64,000 nucleotides of DNA from Utricularia gibba (taxonomy: Eukaryota; Streptophyta; Magnoliopsida; Lamiales; Lentibulariaceae), in assembly GCA_002189035.1 (NCBI GenBank), contig NEEC01000002.1, positions 1,550,001-1,614,000 of the forward strand, in the 5' to 3' direction. The notes under the pieces are model-generated. The model was not told the origin of the DNA. It saw only the letters and a list, made by a program, of their open reading frames with translations, and searched no databases. Below are positions 1-6,662 of the stretch, one piece after another. The number at the start of each line of letters is the position of its first letter. Position 1 is the first letter of the stretch. Both the position numbers and the translations under genes were made by a program.

Positions 1-1910
1 GTATTATTTATAGTATTATTGTGGTCGAAAATCGGTATTAGGGGCAGGAGTCAATCTTCGAATTATGTGTACAATCAAACACATCGTACCCGATTCAGTT
101 TCACATATTGTGTGGAGTGCGATGCGGTTAAAAGAAGTTGGGAAGAACAGTATTTTTACGTGAAAACCGTCGGAAAATAAAAAAAAACCACAAAATTGTT
201 GAAGCTCATCGAAAAATGATATTTACTAGGCAAAGGTGGAGAAAAAATACAACTTGGAGGCTTGGAATTCAAACTTTTTCTTTTTAGTATTTCTTATATT
301 TATAGAAAAAATCAATCTTACTAAATCCTGAATTCTAGATATATCAGCTCCTTTTTACACCTATTGTCTAAACTGTGACTTTATTATTGGATAATCGTCA
401 CCTGTTCTGTCATTGTCATAATTCAACTACTTTTCAATCTATTCAAAACGAATGTTGCTGTCAAATCTCTGATAGATATCGGTTTGTTGGCTTGCGTGTC
501 AATCTGTCAAGGTATCTTTTGGCTAGTTTTCAGATGTCGGTTACCCTAATCCAATTTCTCCCCCATCAAGTATTCAATACATTATTAATTATTTGTCATA
601 CAGTGAAGTTAATTTTCCGTAGCACCCAAATAAAGTTGAGAAAACAGTGACAAATTTATTAATTCATGATCAAAGTTTCCATTATCAAAATGTGGAACTT
701 ATGAAATTTTATGTAGCAAGTGTAAATTTGGATGGAATCATGAATTAATGACTAAAATTTTCTTTCTTTGGAGATAAATGAATTTAAATTTTTCTAACGA
801 CGATTGTGTTGTATTTATGGATGAGTGTGTAATCATTTCGGTGCATGGTTGCTGTTTCATTTCAAGCTATGTTTTCATACAAGCGGGTAACCGGCCGGTT
901 CAACTGGGTGGACCGCATCCCGGGAAAAAAAACAGGTTGGTTAACTAATAAAAGTATAAAAAATCCCTAAAATACAGATCGGTTAATATTTTTTAAAATT
1001 ATTTAGAAAAATATGTTTTTTTATGATATTAGGTTTAAAAATTTTCAAAATTAATATAAGAGATGATATAATTTGAATCTATTATCATTCCAATTATAAG
1101 TGAACAACATGAGTTCAAATGAGGATCAAATATATGATTAATAATTATGTTTTGATTATGTTATTTTGCTTGATGCTTATATACAATTTAGATAATTTGA
1201 ATTTGATATGGTTTTTATTATTTTACATTATTATAGTTAGTATATATATTGCATTCCATATTCATGAATTTTATTCTTATATTACTATTACACTCGTAAA
1301 TCCGTTCATTGGGCATGGCTGATTTGCATGCAATAAAACTGAACTAGACGAGTCTGATTTAGGATTTGCAAACTCAGTGATCACTTTGCAAGTGCTGAAA
1401 ACGAATAAGACAAGGGTTTTTAATATGGAAACTGCCAGGAAGCAGAAACACCACAAAACTGATGTAATTCGTTGGGAGAGTGGTTTCACCAATGAAGGGG
1501 AGGGGAAAGATACACGTTGGAGAGTAGAGAGTACCCCCTTTCTTCCTCAAGCTTCCCATCATTTATAGAAGAGGCCAACTTATACGAGTTCTGCATTCTA
1601 TCGATGTCGGCTACTTTATGCACCTGTTAGCTGTACCGTGATTCCACTAATAGATAACCATTGACTATTTTAGCATTTTTGTAATTTGACTACTTTTTAA
1701 GACTACGAAACAATTGCCGTTATCAAGTTCTGACACTTATCAATATATTGACCTAAATCAACTTTTCAATATGAATAAAAACCTTTGTGTCAGCCGCTTT
1801 AGTCTAAAATGAGCTGGTTTGGTTATTTCTAAAACTACCGATTTTTAAGCCTCTCACCTTCGTGCTCCACATGATTCTTGCCCGATTTCGGGGTCCACCA
1901 ATTACATTCA
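1..1910. other. AT-rich intergenic DNA, no gene seen
   Basis: No reading frame here resembles a known protein. A short GC-rich patch near 885-925 (alternating ccgg and ggttcaac words) stands out from the AT-rich surroundings and looks like a fragment of a dispersed repeat, but I cannot assign a family. The right limit is the TCA that flanks the mobile element starting at 1911. Confidence 0.5.
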
Positions 1911-2301
1911 AGGTGCGTTTAGTCTAAACCCAAGTTTAGTATATTTGGATTTAGATAGCCCGATTTGATAGGTTTAAAGAGTGTAATCTATGTTTGATTG
2001 ATGAGTTTAGATTATTTGAATTTAAGATGAATACATGTTTGGTACGTGGATTTAAAATTGGATTTGTGATAATTTTCATATGAATTTACCAATATAGCCT
2101 TCCCCAATAATAATTACTTCTCTTTATTACCGTTTGTTTTTCCCTTCATCCACCGACTTTCACATGCGGTTGTCGTGGTGCTGCCGCCCAACGAGATCTC
2201 CACCGATTTCACTAGATATTGAGGGTGAAGAGCCATGGGTTAACTCCAGATTATGTACTCTGTTCGTCACACAGAGTTTCTTGCATGAACTTCATTGAAT
2301 T

Positions 2302-3408
2302 TTGAGTCAATTTTACTGTTTACTTGTTGTAAGTGCTCGATGTAGGTGCTTTGTTCTTACTGTTTACTTTGCACTAGAACATATTGCATCTATGCATAGT
2401 CCAATCCTGGTAGAAGACACTCACAAAAAAACGAACCGTGCTTGGAAGCTAGAAAAGGAGAAAGACTTGTTGCACGCTTTGAAGCAGATAATGAAATAAG
2501 GCTGGAAAATTAAAAATGGTTCTAGGGGTGGGTATCATCGAGCGTTGGAGATAGAGTTCTTGAAACTCTGTCCTAGAATCAACATCCGCGCTCACCCACA
2601 TATTACTAGCAAGGTGCATACCTGGAAAAAGGACTACTACCTCATTGTAGATTTTTTATCAAGGTCGGGCACCGGTTTCAGTGAGCTAACCTACACAGTA
2701 GATGCAGACGAGGAGGTCTGGAAGGAGATTGATCAAGTGTGTATGCCTTGTACTCACGATGTTATATCCGGTGCTTACTGTGTTATTATGTCAGCAAACA
2801 CATAGGCTGGATGTTCTAAGACACAAAGCGTGGCCATATTACATGGAGTGGTAGGAAATCTTTGGAAAGAATCAGGCTACATGAGATAACATGATGAGCT
2901 ATGTAGCTGCGACCAAGAACAAGAAATTCATGGAAGATGTTGGGGAGAATCTAGAAGCATCTTCGGATTGCCCACAAGACTCGGATAGCATGGGACAGAA
3001 TATGAACTTCTCGTATGCAGTCACACTTTGTAACCCATTTGGTTGTGGTGCGAAGGGAGCAAAGGGTGTGAATGAAGCGGGTGGGTACTGAGCAGAATCA
3101 ATTATGATGTGTAGTCCTTAAAAGAAATAAAGGAGTTGAATGCACACACATGCAAAGAACTACGTCACTTGGAATTAACAGTGGTGCAGCAAGCACGGGA
3201 GTTGGTGGACAATCAGCGTCAGGCAAGGGAGATCATTAGACGTATATTGCTGCAATTAATTGCCATCCAAAGTTTTACCATAGTAGAGACGATTAGTTTC
3301 AATCTTGTGAGGTTGTGCTACTTCCTTGCCTCCAGTGACTGTGAAAGAGAGTTGATTGTGTGGTTTAGCATCCAAACGCATATCTTAAATCTGTTGTGTG
3401 GTGTTTGA
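2302..3408 (+). pseudogene. Myb/SANT-like domain gene remnant
   Basis: Translating about 2409-2740 gives a recognisable plant Myb/SANT-like domain (the type next to the transposase in PIF/Harbinger elements and in domesticated L10-interacting MYB proteins). Visible pieces are a W-containing first helix, GWKIKNGSRGGYHRALE, then PHITSKVHTWKKDYYLI, then a segment ending EEVWKEID. A single in-frame TAA at 2497-2499 interrupts the domain just before the GWK motif; the frame is otherwise open from 2302 to 2805. Later pieces at 2891-3091 and 3136-3408 look like the low-complexity middle and helical C-terminal part of the same family, but in shifted frames. It is probably not translatable as one protein. 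The family match is from memory of the pattern, not an alignment. Confidence 0.6.
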
Positions 3409-3872
3409 CCTTATGTTGGACTCATGAGCTAGATGTATTTCATCTTCTAATCATCGTATTTCATCTTCTAATCATCCTTTAAGTAAATATACGGTATTTC
3501 ACATTAAAATGTAAGCGAAGGATGACTTAATGTAACTGGTATGAGCATTGTTAAGGGTAAACAGTGTTCCAACGTCATATGCGGAAGCACCGCATACGGA
3601 CAAGCATGGTGTTATGTTGTGAAGCACCATTCCGTAAACACAGTGCTGCAAACACCGTCACATTTAGTGCAGTGCTATCGAGAAGTGATGGGTTAGCACC
3701 GTGTTGGTATTGCTTATTACGAAGCACCATGTTTGGACACAAGGTTTAGTGGTCAGTGATGGCACCGGATTTTACAACATGTGCTACCGCGAACGGTGCT
3801 TGACCACATACTAAGAAAGTTAAAATACCATAGTTCATGCAATATTTATACAAATTAAAGGTACATCATCGA

Positions 3873-4830
3873 TTACACAATAACCTTGTAATACTTCCAC
3901 AATGGGTGTTCCTCGTCTATTGGACATTGACCTACTCTTTGGTGATCAACGTGCGTGGGTACATCCATTACGTCAATGAGCGCTTTTAGGAATGACCTAA
4001 TATCCCCCTCGAACTAAAGAACAATCGTTGACCGCGGTGTACTTAAAGATGGTTGGGAATATGGCATTTTAGGGCTGTCCAATGAAAGTAAACAATCATT
4101 AGGTGTAAGATGGTGGAGAATGAGGGCAATCAGAAACTCACTGGGTTGTGTAGTAACTTGTACGACGCATCATCGATGAGTAGTGTATTAAGACGATGAT
4201 ATTTGCCCTTGAACTCTGTGTTGGCGTCCCAAACATGAGTCAGAAGCTTTAGCTTAATGGTGTTGTTCCTGTTATCATGCACCGGATAACCAGTGTCCAC
4301 TATCCTGGATCCATTACATTGAAAGACGAGCTTGCTGGCGACTACAAGCCCTAGTAACCATTGGACCACATCATGCAATTGTTCACTGTAACATGTCATA
4401 AAAAAGAAAAGTCAGCATCGTGCGAATATGATTGCCTACTAACTGGTCAATCTTACCATCCTCTGGATGACCAAATGACAACATCAAAGTGTTTTATGCA
4501 AAACTTTATCAATTCACAAGCACCTGATCGAAGATACACTATAACCACAACAAATATTACCGACATATGCTACAAATATTAAATACATATCAAATACCAC
4601 CATTTCACTCATAAATAACGACATTCGACTTCGACGCTCCCCACCTGACATCGCGAGGATACACAATATCCGCAAGTACACCATTCACATCAAATATTAA
4701 CAACTTTCGTGTGTCGAGATTCTCTGTGCATAGTCTTTCCAGCTCGATGTACTTTGCAGTGATAGCACCGCACCCATCATTGTGTGTCGAGATCGGTGTT
4801 GGTCCATCACTTTTGCCCCCGCCTTATGGC
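3873..4830 (-). pseudogene. FCP1/NIF-type HAD phosphatase gene remnant with introns
   Basis: Read on the minus strand, separate blocks match the plant FCP1-like (NLI-interacting-factor-like) phosphatase fold in order. TRKLLIFDVNGVLADI (about 4713-4668) carries the HAD nucleophile motif DxNG. A block around FCIKHFDVVIWSS lies near 4460-4530. NTLLIDDASYKLLHNP (about 4150-4200) is the LIDDS-type motif. IRSFLKALIDVMDVP then leads to a stop at 3873-3875. Candidate GT-AG introns of about 70 bases separate the second, third and fourth blocks, so this was copied as genomic DNA, not cDNA. After the last candidate intron an in-frame TAA and a one-base frame slip break the gene. It lies inside the mobile element, convergent with the Myb/SANT remnant. 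Confidence 0.6.
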
Positions 4831-5329
4831 TGCACATCTTCATCCTCTTCATGGGTCACCTCCACAGGATCTTCATTTGTACTCTGACGTTGTTTATGGT
4901 GTCAAGAGGTTCCACACCATAGATATTGTGTCCTAGGGACATTGACAAATGGTGGCAAGACGAACTCTAATAACTTTGTTCTGCAAGAGAAAAAATTCAC
5001 AAATCTCTTTATTGTAGATTTTGGCAATACCTCGATGCCTATAATGGCAATAAGAAAAAGCATGACTATTGTTGCAAACGAATTTAGAATATTTAAAGTA
5101 TTTGCACATGATTATCTGATGGATGTTCAATATTCTTTGACATCCTTAACATTGTTGGCCATTTTGGAGCGTTGGATGGATATATTCATACAAAACTAAT
5201 TCACTAATCATCATATGTACTTCTTATATCTGTAACTAGAACCACGCTACAACCCACCTAAAACCAGCAACCAAACGCGCCCTCATATATTAATTTTTAT
5301 TAAAAATAATTTATACTTTGTATAATAAT

Positions 5330-5352
5330 ATTTAAATATATATATATTTTTT
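5330..5352 (+). promoter_or_regulatory. TATA-rich stretch upstream of the ankyrin gene
   Basis: A run of alternating TA (TTTAAATATATATATATTTT type) lies about 200 bases before the ATG at 5557 and right after the mobile element end at 5282. It could serve as the TATA element of the downstream gene. This is inference from sequence and spacing only. Confidence 0.25.
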
Positions 5353-5556
5353 AAGATACTGGTGAAAGGATTTCCCCGAACCATTCCAAAAACGGTCCGG
5401 GTTATGTATCCTAGTTGAAAACGTTGATTTGAAGAGGAGAGGCGAGGAGTGGATCCTTTCTTTTCAGTCATCAGTCTTATCTGTTTGTATCTTCTTTATG
5501 ATTTGGATCTGCAGACATCGAAACCCTGGAATTCGTCCTGAGCCCGCCGAGTTCAC

Positions 5557-6662
5557 ATGATCATGGAGGATAATGCAAGTCCCCAACTTTACGACACGGC
5601 GCTGCACACGGCCGTCAAGAGCGATGATATCAATCTTGTAAGGGAATTGATTCGAAATCATGAGGGGTTGACCAAGAAGCTCAACCAGGAATTCCTGAGT
5701 CCCCTCCATGTTGCCGTGACTGAAGGCAAGTCACACATCGCAAGGCAGATGGTGGATCACGACGAAAACCTCATCAGACTCGAAGGAAAAGAGGGATGTA
5801 CTCCTCTTCACTACTCTGCTCTTAGGGGCAAAGAGGGATTCCTGGAGCTTTTTCTGGAAGCATGCCCGGACTCCATTTACGACCTCAACGACAAGCATGA
5901 AACCGTCATTCACACGGCTATAGGGGATCCAAATCCGCATGCTTTTCAGACTCTTCTGCGTTGGGTCAGAACACGGAGAAAAGATGGAATCCTTGAAACC
6001 GAAAATATTCAAGGAAGGACCGCTTGGGATTTAATTGCCGAGAATGAGATTTTCAAAAGTATATGGCAAGAAGAGCTAGGATTTGTTGGTAATGACAATG
6101 CAATGCATTTAACTGCCGCGGTGGGAGTCATTTTTCGAATGTGTTGGCAGCGGCTGGGAGAGGTCAGCTGACAGACAAAATTCGCGATAGTTGCTTGGCG
6201 GTCGCCAGTGCCCTGAGCATGGCCACGTTCCAGGCATTATTCCAATCATCCGGTGGCGTCCCCGGCTCTAAGATCGATTCTCGATCTCATCATCCACAGA
6301 GAAATTCTTGGAAAATAATCTTCCTGTCCACAAATGCGCTTGTTTTCTTCATATCACTAACTGCATGCCTGGTGTTTACTTCCAGTCCGGATACGAAAAC
6401 AAACCTCATCGACGTAGTTTGCTTTTACTCGTTTGGCATAGCCTACCTGCTTGCCCAGCATTGCATCGCAAACGTCGGGATCAGGATAACTGTTCTCCTG
6501 ATGCTCATCTTTGTGTTGATCACTTTACCATTATGGGTCCCCTTCCGTTGCCGCTGCCGCCGCCGCTTCTGCCGAATTGAAATACCCACTGTCTGCAGAG
6601 AATTCTTCGAGAGACTCGATCGGCGGTACCGTGTGATGAATGCTGTATCTACTGTTCCTTAA
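5557..6662 (+). CDS. ankyrin-repeat membrane protein (PGG type), frameshifted
   Basis: The ATG at 5557 opens about 190 residues of ankyrin repeats, with motifs such as ALHTAVKSDDINLVRELI, SPLHVAVTEGKSHIARQM and TPLHYSALRGKEGFLELF. A second frame continues from about 6126 to 6662. It starts NVLAAAGRGQLTDKIRDSCL, runs through a PGG-like segment (ATFQALFQSSGGV) and at least two hydrophobic membrane spans, and ends with an Arg/Cys-rich tail. This is the usual layout of plant ANK-PGG proteins, which sit in membranes and in several cases act in defence or salt responses. The two frames join if one G is added to the GGG at 6123-6125, giving about 368 residues. Read as it stands, translation stops at about residue 204, before the membrane part. 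See the finding on GGG-run deletions. The exact role is unknown. Confidence 0.8.

Follow-up and report, generated by a model that had tools for sequence, protein, structure and literature searches.

The element at positions 1911-5282 of the window (the whole 64,000-nucleotide stretch of Utricularia gibba DNA analysed here) is very likely an old, defective PIF/Harbinger copy. Its ancestor would have carried three genes, the window copy would have lost part of it by internal deletion, and the third gene, FCP1-like and derived from the host, would have been captured before at least three lineages parted and would then have been selected. The usual description of PIF/Harbinger elements has two genes. 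If a third, host-derived one is under selection, the elements would require or benefit from some additional function, and the gene would offer a testable handle on how plant transposons handle transcription or silencing.

The window copy and its family

The first-pass annotation had proposed a Harbinger-like element with imperfect inverted ends, bounded by TCA on both sides and enclosing two convergent gene remnants. Table 1 lists the parts of this copy. Both ends, AGGTGCGTTTAG (from 1911) and, on the minus strand, GGGCGCGTTTGG (to 5282), are present between TCA flanks and recur in the genome, which was searched in the same assembly (100 Mb, 516 contigs). The left 200 bases of the window element have at least 40 matches there (40 of 75 candidates scored), and the last 40-50 bases of the right end are found again in other copies, in long ones about 3 kb past the internal sequence. 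The sequence TWAGGGCGCGTTTGGTTG occurs 26 times, its reversed control not once. The family end reads GGGCGCGTTTGGTTG..., and the bases missing from the left end of the window copy lie between two GTTTGG-like words.

Table 1. Parts of the element copy and its target-site duplication, in window positions.
Feature	Position	Strand	Basis or remark
Left target-site copy TCA	1908..1910	.	comparison of copies; TCA elsewhere in L011
Left terminal inverted repeat, damaged; about 13 bases lost just inside	1911..1922	+	comparison with other copies
Left subterminal stretch	1911..2101	+	common to short 0.4-1.0 kb derivatives L004, L017, L018, L019
Myb/SANT gene (ORF1) exon 1, in-frame stop 2497-2499, GT at 2737	2392..2736	+	PF12776
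Myb/SANT exon 2, limits approximate, broken frame; matched 2804-3058 and 3097-3360	2801..3388	+	
FCP1-like exon D (NAIFP ... C-terminus), frame break near 4005	3876..4068	-	
FCP1-like exon C (KLVFQ...NTLLIDDASYKLLHNP)	4142..4333	-	
FCP1-like exon B (RSGACELIKFCIKHFDVVIWSSRG)	4459..4530	-	
FCP1-like exon A, motif I FDVNGVLADI	4611..4850	-	
Right terminal stretch with inverted repeat GGGCGCGTTTGG	5236..5282	-	
Internal-deletion scar, about 3.1 kb gone (= L008 positions 3411-6515)	5242..5245	.	
Right target-site copy TCA	5283..5285	.	

Both ends are present in 14 of the 29 copies fetched, and 13 of these 14 are flanked by identical 3-base sequences, which are TAA or TTA in nine cases and TCA, TTG, TAT and ATA in one case each. 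L011 is counted here with the outer of its two right ends; the inner one gives TTA vs TCA. The flanks of L014 are unequal (TAA/TAG). Long copies with both ends measure 5657-8090 bases including inserts (4409 for L014), and four short derivatives of 0.4-1.0 kb have the family ends and 3-base duplications and are MITE-like. The family thus shows the short terminal inverted repeats common to its copies, degraded at the left end of the window copy, and the 3-base duplication, mostly TWA, of PIF/Harbinger elements. One could read 1911-5282 as host gene remnants between ends that are inverted by chance, with no element at all, given that the window ends are imperfect and the target site is TCA, not TAA/TTA. 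This reading has virtually no probability left, and we rule it out: the same ends, order and 3-base duplications recur in dozens of copies.

The Myb/SANT (plus strand) and FCP1-like (minus strand) remnants are convergent as first described, and both are broken by stops, frame changes or small deletions. The window's own Myb frame reaches 20.9 bits (E 7e-4) against Myb_DNA-bind_3 (PF12776), below the cut-off of 23.6, while the majority peptide of exon 1 scores 34 bits (E 5.9e-8) and identifies the ORF1 expected of PIF/Harbinger elements. The FCP pieces of the window alone give no match in a Pfam search; the joined exons of copy L005 match the FCP1/NIF profile PF03031 with 24.1 bits. The Myb part has 52 matching pieces in the genome and the FCP part 75, which condense to 39 FCP loci. 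At 29 of these 39 a Myb part lies upstream on the same strand, so that the pairing, whose recurrence had been left as a question, is a family trait: searched with the ends and the internal part, the genome yields other copies with the same ends, the 3-base duplication and both genes.

The joined flanks of the window element, taken as an empty site, have no full match elsewhere in its own genome. The right flank (window 5286-5485) is itself a repeat. Four of its seven other matches (L049, L051, L053, L054) cross the empty-site junction, reaching only 5-10 bases to the left before similarity stops, and the case for a paralogous empty site is suggestive at best. About 260 bases to the right of the element starts an ankyrin-repeat open frame (window 5542-6171, plus strand; Ank_2, E 2.5e-23), and the element may lie in its upstream region.

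Internal deletion and the transposase

No transposase match is found inside the window copy, because an internal deletion removed the stretch that holds the gene. Other copies contain about 3.1 kb of extra sequence at window 5242-5245 before the right terminus, and this stretch carries DDE_Tnp_4 matches on the minus strand. Genome-wide, DDE_Tnp_4 (PF13359) matches at least 147 times, with 150 of 266 candidates scored. Taken over ten copies, the majority frame is that of a transposase and contains GAIDGT, YLCDNGY and NVIERAWGLMKMRWG; its peptide scores 28.7 bits and a piece of L058 46.8 bits, above the cut-off of 24.8. The gene order in the longer elements is Myb>, <FCP1-like, <DDE, and the window copy is a deletion derivative of such a transposase-bearing element. 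With ends, 3-base duplications, Myb/SANT gene and the DDE_Tnp_4 gene of the longer relatives, the original assignment to PIF/Harbinger holds. CCAC is found on either side of the deletion junction in L008, and we infer that the 3.1 kb may have been lost by microhomology-mediated deletion.

Between its FCP and DDE genes, L008 has two direct repeats of about 135 bases each at element positions 4155-4289 and 4328-4463, which are about 73% alike. Such a pair is seen between the two genes in further copies as well, and regulatory repeats are a possible interpretation.

The first-pass annotation had combined a captured phosphatase gene with the absence of a transposase. The capture stands, but it is not the work of this copy: it is old and lineage-wide, and the gene belongs to longer, transposase-bearing elements. 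Pack-type capture by the window copy is ruled out. In the Pack-TYPE pattern, captured sequence is confined to non-autonomous copies; here, the FCP gene adjoins DDE in many copies.

The FCP1-like gene: origin, motif and selection

The FCP1-like gene can be read as four exons, A (with motif I), B, C and D. Joined from L005, they score above the curated cut-off of PF03031 (E 3.1e-5; cut-off 21.8 bits) and cover profile positions 1-159 of 160. Joined exons of L058, a copy of a third lineage, reach 40.5 bits against the same cut-off with a query one residue off L058. Element copies are not among the matches listed in a genome scan with the PF03031 profile because exons are scored separately there. 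A phmmer search of the joined protein against PDB sequences returned just four weak, unrelated matches (E 0.23-0.56). Exon A of the window copy lacks about 75 bases at 4711-4714, the WYExRW module, compared with all 12 copies that match on both sides.

The catalytic motif of FCP1/NIF proteins is DxDx(T/V) with both Asp present, the second of which usually acts as acid/base. In the element gene, the third residue of motif I is Asn in all 17 copies in which this place is covered (of 21 rows, 4 do not reach it), and the first is Asp in 15 of the 17. The Asn is also found in the further element stretches L055-L058 and in two host loci, L032 and L035. Because D-x-N-G stands in place of D-x-D, the product may be a weak or pseudo-phosphatase, and the conserved Asn at the usual acid/base place would fit weak catalysis or binding of phosphorylated proteins. 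That the protein is instead an active CTD-type phosphatase which directly boosts transcription of the element's genes seems quite unlikely. The nearly full NIF/FCP1 domain and the prevalent nucleophile Asp are what such an enzyme would show; the Asn at the acid/base position throughout the element copies and both host loci argues against it.

Of the NIF loci, 15 were fetched, and two of them (L032 and L035) give a match to the element gene, with E 1e-3. They read D-L-N-G and D-V-N-G in motif I, resemble the element gene in exons A, B and C, and share with it an intron directly after NP. Exon D resembles the host at its start only (19 residues, L032), and the element version extends further. 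The element-host split is old, since exon C proteins are just 34-42% identical between the element and these two loci. From the common intron and motif, the gene probably arrived as DNA, introns included, from an intron-bearing host gene of a D-x-N-G type family, and the Asn probably predates the capture, being already in the host gene.

Selection was estimated from a pool of 33 copies including the window, of which 14-24 cover each exon by at least 60%. Subfamily B (L040-L043, L046, L047) was separated from subfamily A by low identity to L008. Between A and B, the pooled omega of the FCP gene is 0.31 (codon bootstrap 0.24-0.40), against 0.69 (0.54-0.89) and 1.16 (0.90-1.56) in the wrong frames. 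The corresponding values are 0.27 (0.21-0.35) for Myb, with 1.09 and 0.88 in the wrong frames, and 0.45 (0.36-0.56) for DDE, with 0.74 and 1.00. Selection has therefore acted on FCP with roughly the strength seen for Myb and DDE. Within subfamily A, omega is 0.44 for FCP, 0.36 for Myb and 0.44 for DDE, with wrong frames at 0.65-1.12. In two comparisons a single FCP exon does not fall below one of its wrong frames: within A this is exon D, at 0.52 vs 0.47, and between A and B it is exon B, at 0.49 vs 0.46. All these omega values come from copy pairs that are non-independent and from exons cut with protein queries, which biases somewhat towards low dN. Stop-free copies range from 3 of 17 for Myb exon 2 and 5 of 19 for DDE exon 3 to 17 of 19 for FCP exon C. 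Judged by these substitution ratios, purifying selection has kept the FCP1-like gene in the family of the window, and this selection suggests that the transposon uses the gene.

A neutral gene fragment that rides along as a Pack-type passenger, with no role for the element, is accordingly a poor description of the FCP gene, and we consider it very unlikely. PIF elements do carry transduplicated sequences, according to excerpts of two papers (PMC2528002; PMC8903248), no copy is shown intact, and in the three copies of lineage 3 the FCP omega of 0.46 is set against 0.71 and 0.54 in the wrong frames (DDE: 0.74, wrong frames 0.72 and 0.82). Yet nearly the whole domain is retained, the gene is found in transposase-bearing copies and in three diverged lineages, and its A vs B omega lies within the range of the element's own genes, so that selection largely refutes the passenger reading.

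One capture or several

The gene is not limited to the family of the window. With exon C as protein query, the genome yields at least 146 FCP-like matches, 150 of 168 candidates having been scored. Among the matches listed, 97 rows show 34-55% identity when L032 and L035 are left out; these are perhaps decayed copies of other Harbinger lineages, or partly host genes. For linkage, the 146 FCP and 147 DDE rows listed were merged to 138 FCP and 137 DDE loci. Among them, 34 of the 138 FCP loci follow a DDE locus of the same strand at a distance of 0-5 kb on its downstream side; the opposite strand gives one such case. When the range is widened to 8 kb in both directions, four more are added on the same strand and the opposite strand reaches a total of three, again among the matches listed. 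Eleven of the 34 DDE-linked loci are rows at 40-55% identity in the exon C search. Near most diverged FCP loci, no DDE was found among the matches listed.

Four stretches with FCP-DDE pairs (L055-L058) agree in order and exons. L057 contains Myb (69% in exon 1), FCP and DDE; the other three contain FCP and DDE, with Myb exon 2 (about 30%) in L055 and L058. All four have a WYExRW-type segment ahead of motif I, with one change in L058. In two further, deeply diverged Harbinger lineages the FCP gene occupies the equivalent position, is similar in its exons and is extended by the N-terminal module. A tblastn search for the module in L032 and L035 gave a single 6-residue match, in L035 (E 0.05), which we take as chance.

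The DDE tree comprises 52 fragments (54 loci taken, 2 too short) over 96 columns, with FCP labels from the linkage count. One branch with support 100 splits off 12 rows, none of them FCP-linked, and the outgroup has no linked row among four. All 21 FCP-linked rows fall within the other 36, which are poorly resolved and include 15 unlinked rows. The FCP label needs at least four changes on this tree, while 500 shuffles need 16.5 on average and none as few. Losses, undetected copies or several gains are therefore possible. For three of the 15 unlinked rows, 4.3-4.4 kb downstream of DDE was fetched. Myb/SANT faces DDE in all three stretches at a distance of 0.5-1.3 kb (exon 1 only in L095), and FCP has no match in them except a weak one (E 0.03) that overlaps a Myb exon. 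The FCP gene of the other lineages is thus an addition between two standard genes.

Different Harbinger lineages could have captured the gene repeatedly from one host family, as has been suggested for ULP genes in grapevine MULEs. The label changes on the DDE tree would agree with this, as would the DDEs of the three FCP-less stretches, which fall among FCP-linked ones. Still, we regard repeated capture as unlikely. In the FCP tree (17 selected rows, 123 columns), the 15 element rows are separated from the two host rows, L032 and L035, with support 100/99. The WYExRW module is common to the elements and has just the one chance-like match in the host loci, and position and strand are identical in the lineages read. 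The FCP tree favours a single capture, after which the gene was lost in places or copies of it escaped detection.

We therefore prefer a single capture, which the FCP tree, the like exons and the common N-terminal module would indicate. The FCP1-like gene would have settled between Myb/SANT and DDE before at least three Harbinger lineages separated, purifying selection would then have retained it as an element gene in the family of the window, and internal deletion of such a three-gene element would have left the window copy without transposase. Phosphorylated nuclear proteins are the substrates or binding partners of FCP1-type proteins, so that one would naturally suspect a role in transcription or in evading silencing. 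Most likely, the product acts in trans, in the nucleus and together with the other proteins that the element encodes, and it may aid transcription of the element or its escape from silencing, as is suspected of the captured ULP1 domains in some MULEs. More tentatively, a large old group of PIF/Harbinger elements in plants may possess three working genes, the third coding for an FCP1-like pseudo-phosphatase of the D-x-N type that brings its own N-terminal module and would serve the elements in trans as an anti-silencing or transcription factor. Many loci with FCP1 homology here, and perhaps in other plants, would then be transposon genes, and FCP1-like families in plant annotations may be inflated by transposon copies.

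Comparison with known systems

Among the titles and abstracts listed in our literature search, which lay outside most subscription journals and Repbase, none describes a Harbinger element that carries a gene for an FCP1, NIF or CTD phosphatase. A term search of a Medicago PIF/Harbinger survey for capture, host gene, third or additional ORF and phosphatase gave no hits (PMC2213677). Gene capture by PIF/Harbinger elements had been described as far less documented than capture by Pack-MULEs or Helitrons; cases are, in any event, already in print. Pack-PIF elements are known in rice and maize (PMC8903248, excerpt). The grapevine PIF family Pifvine-3 has elements of 5.8-6.7 kb, often with up to 3.5 kb of non-element sequence, and some grapevine PIF elements hold transduplicated sequences (PMC2528002, excerpt).

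With the PIF/Harbinger superfamily, the family described here shares terminal repeats, mostly TAA/TTA duplications, Myb_DNA-bind_3 and DDE_Tnp_4 genes and short derivatives. It differs in that a selected gene of the FCP1-homology family sits, as a third one, between Myb and DDE. The extra sequences of Pifvine-3 are highly identical to grapevine genome sequences (PMC2528002, excerpt), whereas the family described here has a single extra gene that several lineages have in common and whose exon C is 34-42% identical to that of the two host loci found. Pack-TYPE elements including Pack-PIF likewise have host-derived coding sequence between terminal repeats, but as described in the excerpted text they are non-autonomous and carry captured fragments (PMC8903248), in contrast to a gene in transposase-bearing copies. 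The KIU (Kaonashi) genes offer a further parallel. In Vandal MULEs, a ULP1 domain has been captured, conserved and joined to VANC, an anti-silencing protein (PMC13317346, excerpt). Both cases present a captured host enzyme domain that has long been kept, in KIU with a thought advantage; KIU differs in its MULE superfamily, in being a SUMO protease and in its junction to VANC (PMC13317346, same excerpt).
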